A DNA stretch of 64,000 bases. It comes from Candidatus Bathyarchaeota archaeon. Lineage in GTDB: Archaea; Thermoproteota; Bathyarchaeia; Bathyarchaeales; SOJC01. This document shows positions 1,358 through 6,783 of this stretch, one piece after another (the first letter of the stretch is position 1; each line of letters begins with the position of its first letter). Under the pieces are notes generated by a model. The model made no database searches, had not been told where the DNA came from, and was given only the letters and a program-made list of their open reading frames with translations. The translations under genes and the position numbers were made by a program. The stretch covers positions 1,746,393 through 1,810,392 of the forward strand of contig CP070649.1 in assembly GCA_020354575.1 (NCBI GenBank), given 5' to 3'.

Positions 1358-2566
1358 ATGATGAAGGCAACGCGACCAGCGATCATTAGTGTAGGCAGAA
1401 CAAGATTTGGAGAGCACTATGAGACAGAGCCTGAAAAGCTAGTTGAAGAAGCAGGGTTAACAGCCTTAGATTCTGCGAAAATCGAGCGGAAGGATCTAAA
1501 CGCATGCTACTTTGCAGATTACTTTCTCCCAATAACCAACAAGATAGGACTGGAAGAAGGGTTTTTGTCTGAGCTCTTAGAATTGAACATTCCAATGGAA
1601 ATAACTAGATCCTTTAGTTCAGCCCTCTCAAACGCCAGCAACGCTATTTTGGCCGGAAAACAGGACCTTGTGCTTGTTGGAGGTATGGAAAAAATGACAG
1701 ATCGTTGGGATAAAATTCGAGACGATTTGATGTTACTAGAGGATCCATGGAGCTATTACGCAGGCTGCACACCAGAAGCAAATCATGAGCTTATGTTCAG
1801 AGCATATATTAAAAAATATGGAATCGCTGGACAAGAACTAGATATTTTAAACACCGCGTTGGCTGAATTCTCAGTGAAAAATCACCAAAATGCGTTGAAT
1901 AACAAGTATGCTCAGTACCATAGGAAAATCTCGGTAAATGAAGTTTTAAAGGCAAGGACCAGAGCAAGAAGGCCTTTGGGGCTGTTTGATTTTGCACCAA
2001 TATCTGATGGGGCCTCAGCATTAGTATTAGCAAACTCTGATTTAGCTAAATCTTACACTAAAAAGCCAGTCTACATTCAAGGCTATTCTCTTGCAACAGA
2101 TTATATCACTTTTCCCTCACGCAAGGATTTGACTGGGTTTGCTGCAACTAGACTTGCAATGAAAAAATCTCTCAAAGAAGCAGATATCGGGTTGAATGAT
2201 ATCTCAATTTTGGAGCTTTATGATCAGTCTACAATGATGGGTATGGTCTCTTTAGAAGATTTAGGATTTTGTGAGAAAGGCAAAGCATGGATGGACATTC
2301 ACAGATGTTTGCGAGAAAGTGAAGACCACTATCAACTCAACGGTAGAAGGCTCTTTATTAACATGAATGGCGGACTTAAAGCAGATGGCAATCCGTTAGG
2401 CGCTACTGGAGGAGCGGAAATATTTGAAGTTTTCAAGCAGCTAAGGCGCGAAGCGGGTGAGAAACAGGTGAATGCAAGCGAGGACCTTAAGCATGGTTGC
2501 ATTCATGAGCTGGAAGGCTTCGGTACTAAGGCGTACATATACATATTAGGAAGGGAGTTGGAATGA
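1358..2566 (+). CDS. Thiolase-family protein lacking canonical catalytic residues
   Basis: A 402-residue protein of the SCP-x/archaeal thiolase family: N-terminal SVGRTRFG, then LVGGMEKM (about 107-112), and a C-terminal GGLKADGNPLGATG block. Archaeal thiolases condense or cleave acetoacetyl-CoA and are usually co-encoded with a DUF35 protein and HMG-CoA synthase. Here the helix that should carry the nucleophilic Cys reads ITRSFSSALSNASNAI (82-97) with no cysteine, and the histidine of the GHPxG motif is Asn (GNPLG). One Cys is present near the C-terminus (HGCIHE). Start ATG 1358 is preceded by AAAGGAG. The stop overlaps the next start (ATGA), so translation is coupled. It may be a non-catalytic scaffold or use altered chemistry (inference). 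Confidence 0.85.
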   Translation: MMKATRPAIISVGRTRFGEHYETEPEKLVEEAGLTALDSAKIERKDLNACYFADYFLPITNKIGLEEGFLSELLELNIPMEITRSFSSALSNASNAILAGKQDLVLVGGMEKMTDRWDKIRDDLMLLEDPWSYYAGCTPEANHELMFRAYIKKYGIAGQELDILNTALAEFSVKNHQNALNNKYAQYHRKISVNEVLKARTRARRPLGLFDFAPISDGASALVLANSDLAKSYTKKPVYIQGYSLATDYITFPSRKDLTGFAATRLAMKKSLKEADIGLNDISILELYDQSTMMGMVSLEDLGFCEKGKAWMDIHRCLRESEDHYQLNGRRLFINMNGGLKADGNPLGATGGAEIFEVFKQLRREAGEKQVNASEDLKHGCIHELEGFGTKAYIYILGRELE

Positions 2567-4086
2567 GTAGCGAACCTATTGAAAGACGAGTCGCTTATTT
2601 AGGGGATAGATTGCGAGGGAGTCGCTGTAAAATTTGTGGCAAAGAATACTTCAAACTTAAAAACTATTGTGGAGATTGTGGAAGAGCAAGTTTTAGCAGG
2701 ATGGAAAATATCGATTTTTTTTATGAGGAAGGGACACTTGATTTTTGCACAGTTATTAATAATCCTACAAATAAATTCAAGAAATTGGGATCCTATATTT
2801 ATGGAATAGTGTCCTTCCATGACGGGAAAGTACGTTTTCCGGGTCGGCTAACCGATTATGCAATTGAAGATGATGATGAGATTATTCTAAGTGATTTCGA
2901 AGGCAGAAAGGTTATTCCTAGGTTTAGAAGAAGACATGCTGTTGAACCGAGCGGAATTGTACCGACCATATCTTTGGCTTTCACTTTCTCAGATGAATAC
3001 TATCCATATCAAGAGTATAAAATAGAGAAGCCTTCAAAGGAATATGAAAAACCAGGGATTGTTGCATACGGGACCTATTCTTCTAGGTTTAGAATTAAGG
3101 AGAGGACAATAGAGCGTGCTGTTCCATTTTTAGATGAAGATGCTATAACAGCTGCTGTAGAAGCGGGAAAAATGGCTCTTATCCACTCCAGGGCTACTCA
3201 CAAATCAATCATTAAGGTCTATGTAGGCTCGGAGTCTAACCCGTATGCTGTCAAACCTATCGCTTCCAAAGTGGCACAAGTTCTGAAGCTTGGGGAGGAA
3301 TGTCAGGCTGAAGGAGTTCAATGCGTTGATGCTATAGATACTGAATTCGCCTGCAAGGCTGCAACTAGTATGTTTAAGGACGCTGCTTCTCTCGTCTACT
3401 TCTCAGACCAAGAAGATACTCATGCTATGGTAATTGCCACGGATAACTCTCAATCTGCTCCAAGAGGGGAACCAGGTGGTGAATTAGACCTCTTTGTGGG
3501 TTATGGAAGTGCTGCATTCATTTTTGGTGTGCATGATGTAATCGCTCAATTTGAAGGCTGGAACTCAATTACCTCTGATACTCCCGATTTCTGGAGGAGA
3601 GATACCCAACCTTACCCAAGTCATGGCGGTAGATTTACAGGAGTACCAGCTTACTTTAAGCATGTCACAAAAGCTGTCAAAAAACTTATGGATAGGTTAA
3701 GACTAAAGCCGATTGATGTTAACTACTTTGTAGCACATCAACCCAACGCAGTATTCCCAGCCCGAGTTGCAAAAGCCTTGGGTTTCAATGAAGAACAGTT
3801 TCTCCCAGGACTACAAGTGGCCACCTTTGGAAATACATATTCAGGCTGTTCGCCAATAGGCTTAGCTGCAGTTCTTGATATCGCAAATCCAGATGAAAGA
3901 ATTCTAGTAGCAAGTTATGGCTCAGGAGCGGGAAGTGACACTTACTCCTTTATCACGACGAGACAGCTAATTAGAAAAAGAGCTAGACAAAAATTCACGA
4001 TCAGACATCAAGCAGAAAATGAGTTCTTAAAATATGTTAATTATGACACTTACAGAAGATTTAAGAATGGAATGCAATCAGCCTAA
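2563..4086 (+). CDS. DUF35 OB-fold/zinc-ribbon fused to HMG-CoA synthase
   Basis: A 507-residue fusion. Residues about 18-150 are a DUF35 module: rubredoxin-like ribbon (CKICG and CGDCG) followed by an OB-fold region with YIYGIVSF. Residues about 160-480 are an archaeal-type 3-hydroxy-3-methylglutaryl-CoA synthase, with the catalytic Cys in DTEFACKAA and the histidine motif AHQPN followed by GNTYSGCSPIGLAAVLD. HMG-CoA synthase condenses acetyl-CoA with acetoacetyl-CoA at the entry to the mevalonate pathway for archaeal lipids. In other archaea the thiolase, DUF35 protein and synthase are three polypeptides of one complex; here DUF35 and the synthase are one chain and the thiolase is the overlapping upstream gene. 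The order DUF35-synthase is reversed or separate in most relatives as far as I recall. Confidence 0.9.
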   Translation: MSSEPIERRVAYLGDRLRGSRCKICGKEYFKLKNYCGDCGRASFSRMENIDFFYEEGTLDFCTVINNPTNKFKKLGSYIYGIVSFHDGKVRFPGRLTDYAIEDDDEIILSDFEGRKVIPRFRRRHAVEPSGIVPTISLAFTFSDEYYPYQEYKIEKPSKEYEKPGIVAYGTYSSRFRIKERTIERAVPFLDEDAITAAVEAGKMALIHSRATHKSIIKVYVGSESNPYAVKPIASKVAQVLKLGEECQAEGVQCVDAIDTEFACKAATSMFKDAASLVYFSDQEDTHAMVIATDNSQSAPRGEPGGELDLFVGYGSAAFIFGVHDVIAQFEGWNSITSDTPDFWRRDTQPYPSHGGRFTGVPAYFKHVTKAVKKLMDRLRLKPIDVNYFVAHQPNAVFPARVAKALGFNEEQFLPGLQVATFGNTYSGCSPIGLAAVLDIANPDERILVASYGSGAGSDTYSFITTRQLIRKRARQKFTIRHQAENEFLKYVNYDTYRRFKNGMQSA

Positions 4087-4095
4087 ACCAAACAT

Positions 4096-5283
4096 GTGAG
4101 GGAATCCTCGATGGAAGAAGAATCTCAAGAACAGCAAACATGGCAATTTGCCCGATTAATATTGAAGGTGCTTTATAATCCAACTAGGGCATTCGAAGAA
4201 ATAATCAAAAGACCGATGATTAAGGGTCCAATTCTTATTCTGATAATAACGTTACCTTTAATTCTTGCTGGACAATACATTAGCGGAACCAAGTTTTTCT
4301 TAGAAAATCCAATACCTGATGAAGATTTGTGGACGGAGAAACCGTTAAACTCAGCATCATTCCTTTGGACCTCCAATGATAATATCACTTTCGATGATGG
4401 CGATTACATTTCAGGCAACTATAGCGTTTCATCTTCTCTAATTAACACGTCCACCATATGGCTACGTTTGACAGATATTGGAAGGATCAACTGCGGTACA
4501 GAAGAATTCAATCGCTTGTCATTTAAAATCAAATGGATAATCGAAGGAAATGCAATCCCAACTGCAATTTTGCAGTTGTTTTCTCACGATGAAAATCGTA
4601 GATTCGAATCAAATATAACACACATAATAGCCAATAGCTCAGGTATTTGGGAAAATGTAACTGTAAGCTTGGCGACTAATAATACTAACACCTGGATTCC
4701 GACCTCTAACCAGCCCAGTTGGGATAACATTACTGGAGTAGAGTTCCAATTGTTTTATGACGGAAACACAAATCTCACCATAAGAATAGATGATCTATTC
4801 TTTGGAAAATTCATTCCCATATCGTCTTCTGCCACCTTTGATATACAAATACTATATCTACTCTTGCGAAGTAGTGCTGATCATTTATTCGAGTGGCTGA
4901 TATTATCTGGATTGGTTTTACTGGCTCTAAAAAGCTTCACGGATTGGAAAGGGGTTTGGAAAGAAATCTTCTTCACTATAGGATATGTTTATTCAGCTTT
5001 CATTCTGAATTTTGCAGCTCTTGTTGTCCTATTCTCAGTTTTACCAGCACTTTTCATTCCTTATCGAATCACATACTTAGAGTACCTTGATCTCTATCAA
5101 GGTAGCTGGGGTACACCTATCTCCGTTGTAACACTGCTTTTTTACGGATGGATCATGATTCTTTGCACAATCGGTGTAAAAAAGATGCAGGAAATGTCTT
5201 GGAGCAAAGCACTTCTTATTGGCTTTGGAGCTATTCTGATAAGTTTGGTGTTTAGTTCACTCTTGCTCAGTATGTTCTTTTAA
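4096..5283 (+). CDS. Yip1-like multi-pass membrane protein with inserted exterior domain
   Basis: A 395-residue protein. The N-terminus (ARLILKVLYNPTRAFEEI) is typical of archaeal YIP1-family proteins. One TM helix lies at about 44-63; residues 65-245 are hydrophilic, rich in N-x-S/T sequons and look beta-rich, like a carbohydrate-binding or LamG-type sandwich exposed outside; four or five TM helices follow (about 252-395). Function unknown; the family is involved in membrane traffic in eukaryotes but not understood in archaea. It starts at GTG 4096, 9 bases after the synthase gene (an ATG at 4111 is an alternative), so it may be the third gene of that operon. Its end overlaps the convergent regulator gene by 27 bases. 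Confidence 0.65.
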   Translation: MRESSMEEESQEQQTWQFARLILKVLYNPTRAFEEIIKRPMIKGPILILIITLPLILAGQYISGTKFFLENPIPDEDLWTEKPLNSASFLWTSNDNITFDDGDYISGNYSVSSSLINTSTIWLRLTDIGRINCGTEEFNRLSFKIKWIIEGNAIPTAILQLFSHDENRRFESNITHIIANSSGIWENVTVSLATNNTNTWIPTSNQPSWDNITGVEFQLFYDGNTNLTIRIDDLFFGKFIPISSSATFDIQILYLLLRSSADHLFEWLILSGLVLLALKSFTDWKGVWKEIFFTIGYVYSAFILNFAALVVLFSVLPALFIPYRITYLEYLDLYQGSWGTPISVVTLLFYGWIMILCTIGVKKMQEMSWSKALLIGFGAILISLVFSSLLLSMFF

Positions 5284-5685
5284 AATCGGTTCATTTGTGG
5301 GTGTGCAAGGTGGTGAGCAAAAATTGCATTGTTCCATGTCTAGCTTGGAATTTGATTGTTTACATAATTCGCACATAAGGCGCTTTTCTCGTACAAGTCT
5401 ACAAGTAAGACAAATCTGAAAAGCAAGTGCCATTACATTTGACTCGTGACTAACTAGTAGAGCAGCCATTTTCTCAATCTGCACTTTTATCGCTTTTTCT
5501 CTTGCTATAGGAAGAATACTTCCTCTCACGTGATGAGAGTATTTGCTTATTGCAGTTTGCGTTATGCCTAGCAGGTTTGCTGCTTCTCTTTGCTTCAGTC
5601 CATAGGATTCAATTAATTCTTTGGCAAGACAAGCACGAATTGCCGGAACCACGGATTTCACCGCAACTTCGCAAGGGAGTTTCAT
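5257..5685 (-). CDS. HTH transcriptional regulator with cysteine-rich tail
   Basis: From ATG 5685 the protein has 142 residues; the longer frame to 5757 would run through the promoter and operators, so the inner start is chosen. It opens MKLPCEVAVKSVVPAIRA, followed by a helix-turn-helix (LKQREAANLLGITQTAISKY, about 29-48) of the lambda-repressor type seen in a family of archaeal regulators. The last third has three Cys-pair groups (CLTC, CELC, CNFC plus one more Cys), suggesting a bound metal or Fe-S cluster and a sensory role (inference). Divergent from the regulator at 5749, with which it shares a TATA element and palindromes, so the two are probably auto- or cross-regulated. Confidence 0.75.
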   Translation of the reverse strand: MKLPCEVAVKSVVPAIRACLAKELIESYGLKQREAANLLGITQTAISKYSHHVRGSILPIAREKAIKVQIEKMAALLVSHESNVMALAFQICLTCRLVREKRLMCELCKQSNSKLDMEQCNFCSPPCTPTNEPILKEHTEQE

Positions 5686-5718
5686 TGCCTTTCTTCCTGA
5701 CAGAGGATGTTGGAAAAG

Positions 5719-5727
5719 GTATATAAG
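5719..5727. promoter_or_regulatory. Symmetric TATA box between divergent regulators
   Basis: GTATATAAG lies behind the purine-rich GGAAAAGG, a good BRE for rightward transcription. Its centre is about 26 bases before the ATG at 5749, which would make that mRNA leaderless. Read leftward, the same element is about 37 bases before the ATG at 5685. It may serve both genes, though only one start per strand can be guessed. Confidence 0.5.
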
Positions 5728-5743
5728 TATGACGTTCGTCATA
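5728..5743. promoter_or_regulatory. Perfect palindrome, candidate operator 1
   Basis: TATGACGTTCGTCATA is a perfect 16-base inverted repeat directly downstream of the TATA box. It shares the half-site TATGAC with the palindrome at 5747-5764, the two centres being 20 bases apart, that is two helical turns on one DNA face. Confidence 0.7.
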
Positions 5744-5746
5744 ATA

Positions 5747-5764
5747 TTATGACGCATGTCATAA
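5747..5764. promoter_or_regulatory. Imperfect palindrome, candidate operator 2
   Basis: TTATGACGCATGTCATAA has 7-base arms (TTATGAC/GTCATAA) around GCAT and overlaps the proposed leaderless ATG at 5749. A regulator bound here would block both start-site access and translation start of the rightward gene. Confidence 0.65.
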
Positions 5765-6783
5765 GAGCAATAGAGGAAACGTTTTTGAAAAAGACCTATT
5801 CTCCTTTCTCCCCTCAGAAGGCTGATAAAAAAAACGAAGCTCTTATGACATACGTTTCATTCAACGAGCAGTTGAGAGATCGCGAGTTTGCTGGAGATTC
5901 GTTATGGCTGTCAAGAAAAATGGTTAACAATGGGTGCACCTTGGAGCAAACACGGCAAGTGATGGAGGAGCGATGCAAAGACTGCAATGTTATTTCGCCA
6001 ATGTTTTGTGTAGAGCATTGCGAGACATGGAAAGTCAAGAAAGAGCTTCGTGAAACCAATAAAGCGCTTTCAGGAGATGACCATGGAGAAAGATTGATGA
6101 ATGCCATCAAGAATAAGAGAAGACTAGCGGTTATTGACATTCTCCAAGAAAAAAGGGTCTCTCTTGACGATTTGCAGAAGAAACTTAAAAAATATGGGTT
6201 TTTTCACAGTCAAAAAACGATTAATGGATATTTGCATCCATTGCTAGAAGCTGGCTTGATTATTAAAAGTGATCAAATCCTGGAACTTACACTGTATGGT
6301 AAAAGGATTCATGAAGCTATCTACAGACATGGTTATACAGGACAGCTGCCAATTCATTCGAACAGTTATGAGGAGAAAATCCTTGAAGTCCTTTTACAGA
6401 ATGCGAAAACCCACAATGAGTTGCAAGTCATTGTACCAATTAAGAGTCTTTCAAGGGTCTTAAAGCGGTTATTAGATCGTGGTTTGATATTAAATAATTC
6501 TCCTTCTGACCATGTTTTCTATTTTCGTACAAGGAGAGCATTGGCTTTAGAGAAACTTTCACCAACACACAAAAAGATCTGCACAACAATCCCACCAGCA
6601 GGAATCTCAACCCGTGAGTTGTCGAAAATCATGGAAATCAACATTCGTCGAATGTACAAATATTTGCGTGCTCTACGAGGCAAGAAACTAGTATTTAGGA
6701 GAAGAATACCAATTAGATTTGAATTATCAGCCAAGGGAAAAAGGTTGGCTGAATTCTTAAACGAAATTACAAATATTAAATAG
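5749..6783 (+). CDS. Cys-cluster and winged-helix transcriptional regulator
   Basis: A 344-residue protein from ATG 5749, chosen because it sits about 26 bases after a TATA box; ATG 5845 (residue 33) is the other candidate. Near the N-terminus a cluster CKDC, FCVEHC (about 73-90) resembles metal or Fe-S binding sites in archaeal regulators. The rest is helical with at least two or three winged-helix-like units (for example VSLDDLQKKLKKYGFF at about 142-157, ISTRELSKIMEINIRRMYKY at about 283-302), ending in a basic wing. DNA binding is probable; target and signal are unknown. It faces the other cysteine-rich regulator across the paired palindromes. Confidence 0.65.
   Translation: MTHVIRAIEETFLKKTYSPFSPQKADKKNEALMTYVSFNEQLRDREFAGDSLWLSRKMVNNGCTLEQTRQVMEERCKDCNVISPMFCVEHCETWKVKKELRETNKALSGDDHGERLMNAIKNKRRLAVIDILQEKRVSLDDLQKKLKKYGFFHSQKTINGYLHPLLEAGLIIKSDQILELTLYGKRIHEAIYRHGYTGQLPIHSNSYEEKILEVLLQNAKTHNELQVIVPIKSLSRVLKRLLDRGLILNNSPSDHVFYFRTRRALALEKLSPTHKKICTTIPPAGISTRELSKIMEINIRRMYKYLRALRGKKLVFRRRIPIRFELSAKGKRLAEFLNEITNIK

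Follow-up and report, generated by a model that had tools for sequence, protein, structure and literature searches.

Paired palindromes between two divergent cysteine-containing regulators in Bathyarchaeia as candidate operators of a probable autoregulated redox regulator

Two palindromes in the spacer between divergent regulator genes of a Candidatus Bathyarchaeota archaeon are read here as the paired operator of an autoregulated redox regulator, which would also control the divergent partner gene and a small regulon; judged from sequence comparisons, this whole reading was given a probability of about 0.57. Very probably, the palindromes are conserved operators of a regulator that carries a cysteine tail and controls its own gene. 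Positions are those of the window, the whole 64,000-nucleotide stretch of DNA that was analyzed (contig CP070649.1).

Paired operators in a divergent promoter

The regulator gene (5257-5685, minus strand; ATG at 5683-5685) encodes a 142-aa protein with an XRE-like helix-turn-helix and three CxxC motifs, and the partner gene (5785-6783, plus strand; probable TTG start at 5785) encodes a protein in which CxxC-x7-CxxxC precedes tandem winged-helix domains. The C-terminal tail of the regulator follows the pattern CxxC-x9-CxxC-x11-CxxC, and C5, C92, C95, C105, C108, C120 and C123 were invariant in 27 aligned homologs; these six tail cysteines and C5 are the conserved, ligand-like cysteines looked for in a thiol or metal sensor. 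The four partner cysteines were invariant in 12 aligned homologs, and the cysteine sets that a sequence-only reading had noticed in both proteins were thus borne out. HTH_3 (PF01381) matched the regulator at 22 bits, below the 23-bit cut-off, over residues 46-73 of the 166-aa ORF only. Its AlphaFold2 model (overall pLDDT 73.7, tail at low confidence) placed helices at residues 32-39 and 43-50 with pLDDT ~90, the latter being the approximate position of the predicted recognition helix. Comparison by sequence with solved structures gave a best E-value of 0.0017, Foldseek with the model returned no match at E ≤ 0.001, and the MqsA-type antitoxin model TIGR03830 scored 22.2 bits against a curated cut-off of 61.8. 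In the partner (model mean pLDDT 82.8), HTH_45 exceeded its Pfam cut-off; Foldseek placed ArsR/HlyU-like winged helices at probability 0.98-1.00 but at E ~0.1 or worse, with no match at E ≤ 0.001, and the ArsR/SmtB model NF033788 (24.5 vs 55 bits) and the MsvR model (14.1 vs a cut-off of 220) remained below threshold.

The proximal candidate site, operator 1, is TATGACGTTCGTCATA at 5728-5743 (core ATGACGTTCGTCAT, 5729-5742), and the distal one, operator 2, is TTATGACGCATGTCATAA at 5747-5764 (core ATGACGCATGTCAT, 5749-5762). Both have the form TATGAC-N4-GTCATA, with centers 20 bp apart, in agreement with the common TATGAC half-site and spacing described earlier from the sequence. The description of the first as a perfect 16-base palindrome does not hold: its 7-bp arms flank a TT center and 14 of 16 positions pair, operator 2 has arms of 7 bp each around a 4-bp center, and neither site is palindromic over its full length. 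As also described, the pair lies beside a single TATA box and between divergent regulators; this AT box (5720-5727; TATATAAG on the plus and CTTATATA on the minus strand) is separated by 1 bp from operator 1 and its ATGAC core. It appears to be the TATA box of the regulator promoter and is possibly read by the partner as well, whose own TATA may be either this common box or AT-rich sequence lying between the two operators.

Exact TATGACN4GTCATA occurred twice in the 64-kb window, only at the two operators, where base composition predicts 0.0065 occurrences, and a genome search of the kind proposed with the earlier reading found five in the 1.84-Mb genome (one contig) against 0.19 expected, the other three being at 630368, 861469 and 955739. 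There was no excess when up to three mismatches were allowed in the window (25 matches vs 25.5 expected) or up to two in the genome (71 vs 69 for a reversed control). The signal is limited to exact and near-exact sites, and loose matches are uninformative. A degenerate third half-site, TATGACATACGTTTCA (5844-5859, plus strand), inside the 5' region of the partner, has three mismatches and is alone not above chance.

Comparison of the spacer in relatives, also proposed with the earlier reading, covered 30 ortholog loci, 29 of them with upstream DNA (L039 starts at a contig end). Upstream of the regulator, every one of the 29 has a site with no more than one mismatch, and 22 have two. The proximal site begins 55-63 bp before the regulator start codon and the second lies 18-22 bp farther out. 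As for a third site, one-mismatch matches were seen in L025, L029 and L030, between -178 and -186 relative to the regulator start. In the 29 aligned promoters (the L027 row placed on its distal site), information content was high in the operator and in TTATATA, which directly follows the proximal operator and is strongly conserved, and low in the flanks. Across 61 genomes (this one and 60 relatives) the strict motif ATGACRYRYGTCAT was found 84 times, against 2 for the reversed control.

Center-to-center spacing in 30 two-operator loci was 18 bp in 2, 19 in 6, 20 in 8, 21 in 13 and 22 in 1, so that 21 of the 30 stand at 20 or 21 bp. The earlier proposal of two dimers on one DNA face fits this in part: the spacing is near two helical turns, but its range of 18-22 bp is not rigid, and same-face cooperativity is plausible. 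The divergent partner is present in 28 of the 30 two-operator loci. Two sites were found in 23 of 24 partner-adjacent loci vs 1 of 8 without the partner (Fisher p = 1.8e-5), a count that omits L024 and L039 and in which all seven one-site loci come from genus g20 and so amount to nearly one evolutionary event. The exceptions are L114, partner-adjacent with one intact site and one with a shortened center, and L035, with two sites and no partner; L141, of a separate lineage, has one site and no partner, and L138, which also lacks the partner, has two sites and, on the divergent side, an Oxidored_q6 gene (hydrogenase small-subunit type). Because the second site goes with the partner, its simplest reading is that the distal operator would serve the divergent promoter of the Cys4 winged-helix protein. 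Three tandem operators at 21-bp spacing were seen upstream of the regulator in L148 (Candidatus Bathyarchaeota archaeon A05DMB-2).

The partner start was examined separately. A leaderless start at 5749, within operator 2, had been proposed and was found to be unsupported, since near relatives have a GGAGG-like site in common and most start downstream of the operators. In the window GAGG at 5773-5776 (plus strand) is the likely ribosome-binding site of the partner, and GGAGG occupies the same place in L014-L020. Past the distal operator lies a pyrimidine element, TCTCCTTTCTCCCC (5800-5813), considered as a regulatory site. At 21 of the 30 loci with two operators, two of these loci being without the partner, it matched at no fewer than 9 of 11 positions, 30-44 nt beyond the distal operator; 0 of 8 one-operator loci scored reached this level. 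The element occurs once in this genome and falls on a conserved stretch of the partner gene that encodes SPFSPQ. Elsewhere in the window, an HMG-CoA synthase gene (2563-4086), adjacent to a thiolase gene, encodes a polypeptide that also shows weak N-terminal matches to a ChsH2-type zinc ribbon (E = 0.0087) and OB-fold (E = 0.038); elsewhere in archaea the DUF35 part is known as a separate protein.

Candidate regulon and promoter geometry

Thirty-six strict-site regions not at regulator genes, part of all sites, were fetched (3 from this genome and 33 from relatives), and neighbors within 500 bp were identified by blastp; the names crtI, crtZ and sulfite-oxidase were assigned here from Pfam family matches. 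Thirty regions adjoin redox-type genes (20), DUF362 (2), DsrE (1) or TFB (7), many of the molybdenum-enzyme (Mo) and TFB rows being near-copies from genus g20. An Oxidored_molyb (sulfite-oxidase-like) gene stands beside 14 of the 36, in two pieces in L086, L106 and L107. Genes of crtI-like or DUF116-crtZ-like type stand beside 3, and a cytochrome b-like small membrane protein beside 2, with a sub-threshold Pfam match in one and none in the other. A flavodoxin-like ORF with two operators accounts for one region, and one of the DUF362 genes, a family without assigned function, is next to a nitroreductase gene. The six regions in no class are L043 (polysaccharide-flippase-type gene), L088, L093, L097 (ABC-transporter ATPase of no assigned substrate), L099 (zinc-ribbon-like ORF) and L102. 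The carotenoid site of this genome has a crtI-like gene on one side and a run of DUF116, crtZ-like and 2-thiouracil desulfurase/DUF1722 genes on the other, near lycopene cyclase and UbiA genes. Predicted targets of the regulator here are carotenoid-type genes and a cytochrome b-like gene; those in relatives comprise genes for sulfite-oxidase-like enzymes, a flavodoxin and a DsrE-family protein, along with DUF362 genes and a paralog of TFB.

Several neighborhoods were recorded in their own right. An additional site in G060, read by eye, precedes a NifU-like gene and has a thioredoxin-like gene upstream; in G051 the site is preceded by a catalase gene and followed by TFB; and in G005 DsrE alone is behind the site, the FTR, glutaredoxin-like and SOD genes being on its opposite side. 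A carotenoid-type cluster in a Bathyarchaeia genome (L045:5324-12091) comprises crtI-like, lycopene cyclase, crtZ-like and UbiA genes and a 2-thiouracil desulfurase/DUF1722 protein. The operator stands upstream of TFB genes at L078, L081, L084, L087, L104, L108 and L089, and control of these genes would make a general-factor cascade possible.

Repression was judged the probable main mode of control from the placement of the sites. On the minus strand the right half of operator 1 falls at the BRE position of the regulator's TATA box, for which reason negative autoregulation, in which the regulator turns off its own promoter, is most likely; a conserved operator over the regulator's own core promoter was found at 29/29 loci with upstream DNA. 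A hand-made TATA matrix was applied to 25 promoters. The top-scoring box began 13-15 bp past the start of the site, at the edge of the core, in nine (crtI-like twice, TFB four times, flavodoxin, DUF362 and one Mo gene). In ten it began 7-11 bp ahead of the site (seven Mo, two DUF116-crtZ-like and a weak case at DsrE), and six fitted neither class at first rank. The regulator's own promoter belongs with the former class. From core end to start codon the distance was 56-59 bp for six g20 TFB genes, 59 bp for both DUF362 genes and 41-49 bp for the regulator. Sites downstream of TATA would block the polymerase complex, and sites upstream of TATA, on the BRE, are read as repressing too.

The two positional classes (9 vs 10 of 25, with 6 in neither) would also suit a regulator that activates from upstream of TATA (itself, TFB, flavodoxin, DUF362 and perhaps crtI-like genes) and represses from downstream (most sulfite-oxidase-like genes, DUF116-crtZ-like genes and DsrE), much as OxsR of Haloferax is reported to activate upstream and repress downstream of BRE/TATA (PMC9426492). 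We consider such a dual role unlikely: the upstream site is on the BRE, 1 bp from TATA, and should hinder TFB, and in G000 and G011 crtI-like and DUF116-crtZ-like genes flank a single operator.

With repression kept as the favored mode, redox is slightly more likely than not to be the signal; cysteine oxidation or metal loss would alter DNA binding and hence transcription. The redox or metal signal first suggested from the cysteine sets stands insofar as the other sites adjoin largely redox-type genes (30/36 with DUF362 and TFB included), while the signal itself is read from those neighbors, and most rows are sulfite-oxidase-like near-copies from one genus. That the regulator is instead a zinc or iron homeostasis sensor seems unlikely. 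The CxxC pairs and the weak ArsR-type similarity of the partner favor it, and in the other operator classes described below 17 of 22 members carry His in place of C108, an exchange that fits a structural zinc as well as a sensor; on the other side, no metal transporter or storage gene was recognized behind the fetched sites, where L097 has its ABC ATPase.

The protein and the residue that go with the motif

A regulator homolog was found at E ≤ 0.001 in 55 of the 61 genomes and the partner in 27. The regulator profile found 76 loci in named genomes, the best being Candidatus Bathyarchaeota, including Candidatus Bathyarchaeum. With a regulator cut-off of E ≤ 6e-25, chosen after the data had been seen, the strict motif was present in 31 of 32 genomes that passed and in 1 of the other 29; the sole miss, G025, carries two one-mismatch sites, and the lone match among the others, G047, lies inside an apparent ribosomal L3 gene (read by eye). 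Eight genomes with such a regulator and no partner match (G024, G027, G030, G033, G039, G045, G048 and G057; G027 is 69% complete and its locus lies where a contig ends) all carry the motif, and three with the partner and no such regulator (G031, G037 and G043) carry none, nor any site with at most one mismatch in their partner promoters. On this co-occurrence (8/8 vs 0/3) the motif goes with the XRE-like minus-strand protein, not with the winged-helix partner, and one protein, not both, explains both sites; we infer that it binds them, presumably as a dimer. Binding by the partner instead, itself a predicted regulator that co-occurs with the second operator, was rejected on the same counts as highly improbable.

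The wider family was used to look at operator specificity. From it 105 members with at least two tail cysteines and with upstream DNA were taken, and a perfect xxNAC-N3/4-GTNxx palindrome was found within 115 bp upstream of 58, shuffled sequences giving a mean of 1.3 and a maximum of 5; the 47 members without a site of this form carry no information on residue 48. Short palindromes are common and loosely matched sites stand at chance level, but chance or non-regulatory inverted repeats are a negligible explanation in view of the excess of exact matches, the 84 strict matches against 2 in the control and these shuffled counts.

In the 58 loci the operator base N was G with K or R at residue 48 (36/36), T with L or M (7/7) and A with Q, N, H, W or Y (15/15), and only column 48 separated the operator classes fully (1.30 of 1.30 bits; next best 1.01). 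The T class palindrome has the same distance from the start as in the window family; the A class shows more variation, its center often being 3 bp long. In a sister subfamily (L117, L118, L120, L121, L216, L218 and L147), ATTAC-N4-GTAAT stands upstream and residue 48 is L or M. The R48 member L300 has TGACAATGTCA, consistent and outside the count, and the Y48 member L282 has ATAACAAAGTTAT (counted) and CTACAATTGTAG, and is ambiguous. In a tree built without the recognition-helix columns, the three operator classes formed three groups with just two changes. These alignments are therefore suggestive, and make chemical sense, but are not proof, that residue 48 sets the third operator base: with only two changes on the tree, common descent could explain the pattern, and residue 48 was not accepted as proof of contact.

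Relation to known regulators and meaning

The regulator appears to be a ThiR-type relative in which a cysteine tail replaces ThiN. The N-terminal helix-turn-helix is alike, the regulator profile finding haloarchaeal proteins, one of which, L151 (30% over query residues 1-122, E = 6e-12), was scanned for domains; L151 has ThiN after the helix-turn-helix (E = 6.8e-44), whereas the window protein has no ThiN match and the three-CxxC tail instead, and the neighboring gene sets differ. Proteins with this helix-turn-helix and ThiN are presumably ThiR, with a role in thiamine metabolism, and we take COG2522 to be the family name of the regulator. A search of open-license papers yielded no description that we recognized of such a regulator or operator, and COG2522 gave none.

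XRE/HTH_3 repressors of the lambda Cro type have tandem operators. The window system resembles them in its HTH_3-like region, palindromic sites and likely autoregulation, and differs in its sub-cut-off HTH_3 score (22 vs 23), archaeal TATA/BRE context and cysteine tail. SurR and MsvR are cysteine-containing archaeal regulators of redox genes, of the winged-helix type and with other operators. ThiR is listed as a predicted thiamine regulator in Pyrococcus (PMC10746257). OxsR of Haloferax, a thiol-based TrmB-family regulator of oxidative stress, is alike in being cysteine-based and archaeal and in having palindromic sites at set places with respect to BRE/TATA (PMC9426492). It is unlike the window regulator in its winged-helix family, in one key Cys against three CxxC and in a CG-rich motif.

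Taken together, these observations permit a tentative further reading, to which we give somewhat less than an even chance: that an uncharacterized Cys-tail ThiR relative is a lineage-wide redox switch of Bathyarchaeia, with its operator placed at the BRE both in its own promoter and in others, a dedicated TFB paralog under its control, as a general-factor cascade, in one genus or more, and the third operator base set across the family by residue 48, which would let paralogs within a cell have distinct operators. Bathyarchaeia are widespread, mostly uncultured archaea, and to our knowledge little is known of how they control gene expression. A conserved operator, a predicted binder and about 30 candidate target promoters would make a redox response testable in vitro. 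A possible case of a TFB switch is also offered, and a simple specificity rule is suggested for a large archaeal regulator family, its profile matching (E ≤ 1e-8) in 129 of the 151 genomes sampled from the phylum, some of these matches perhaps being of the ThiN type.
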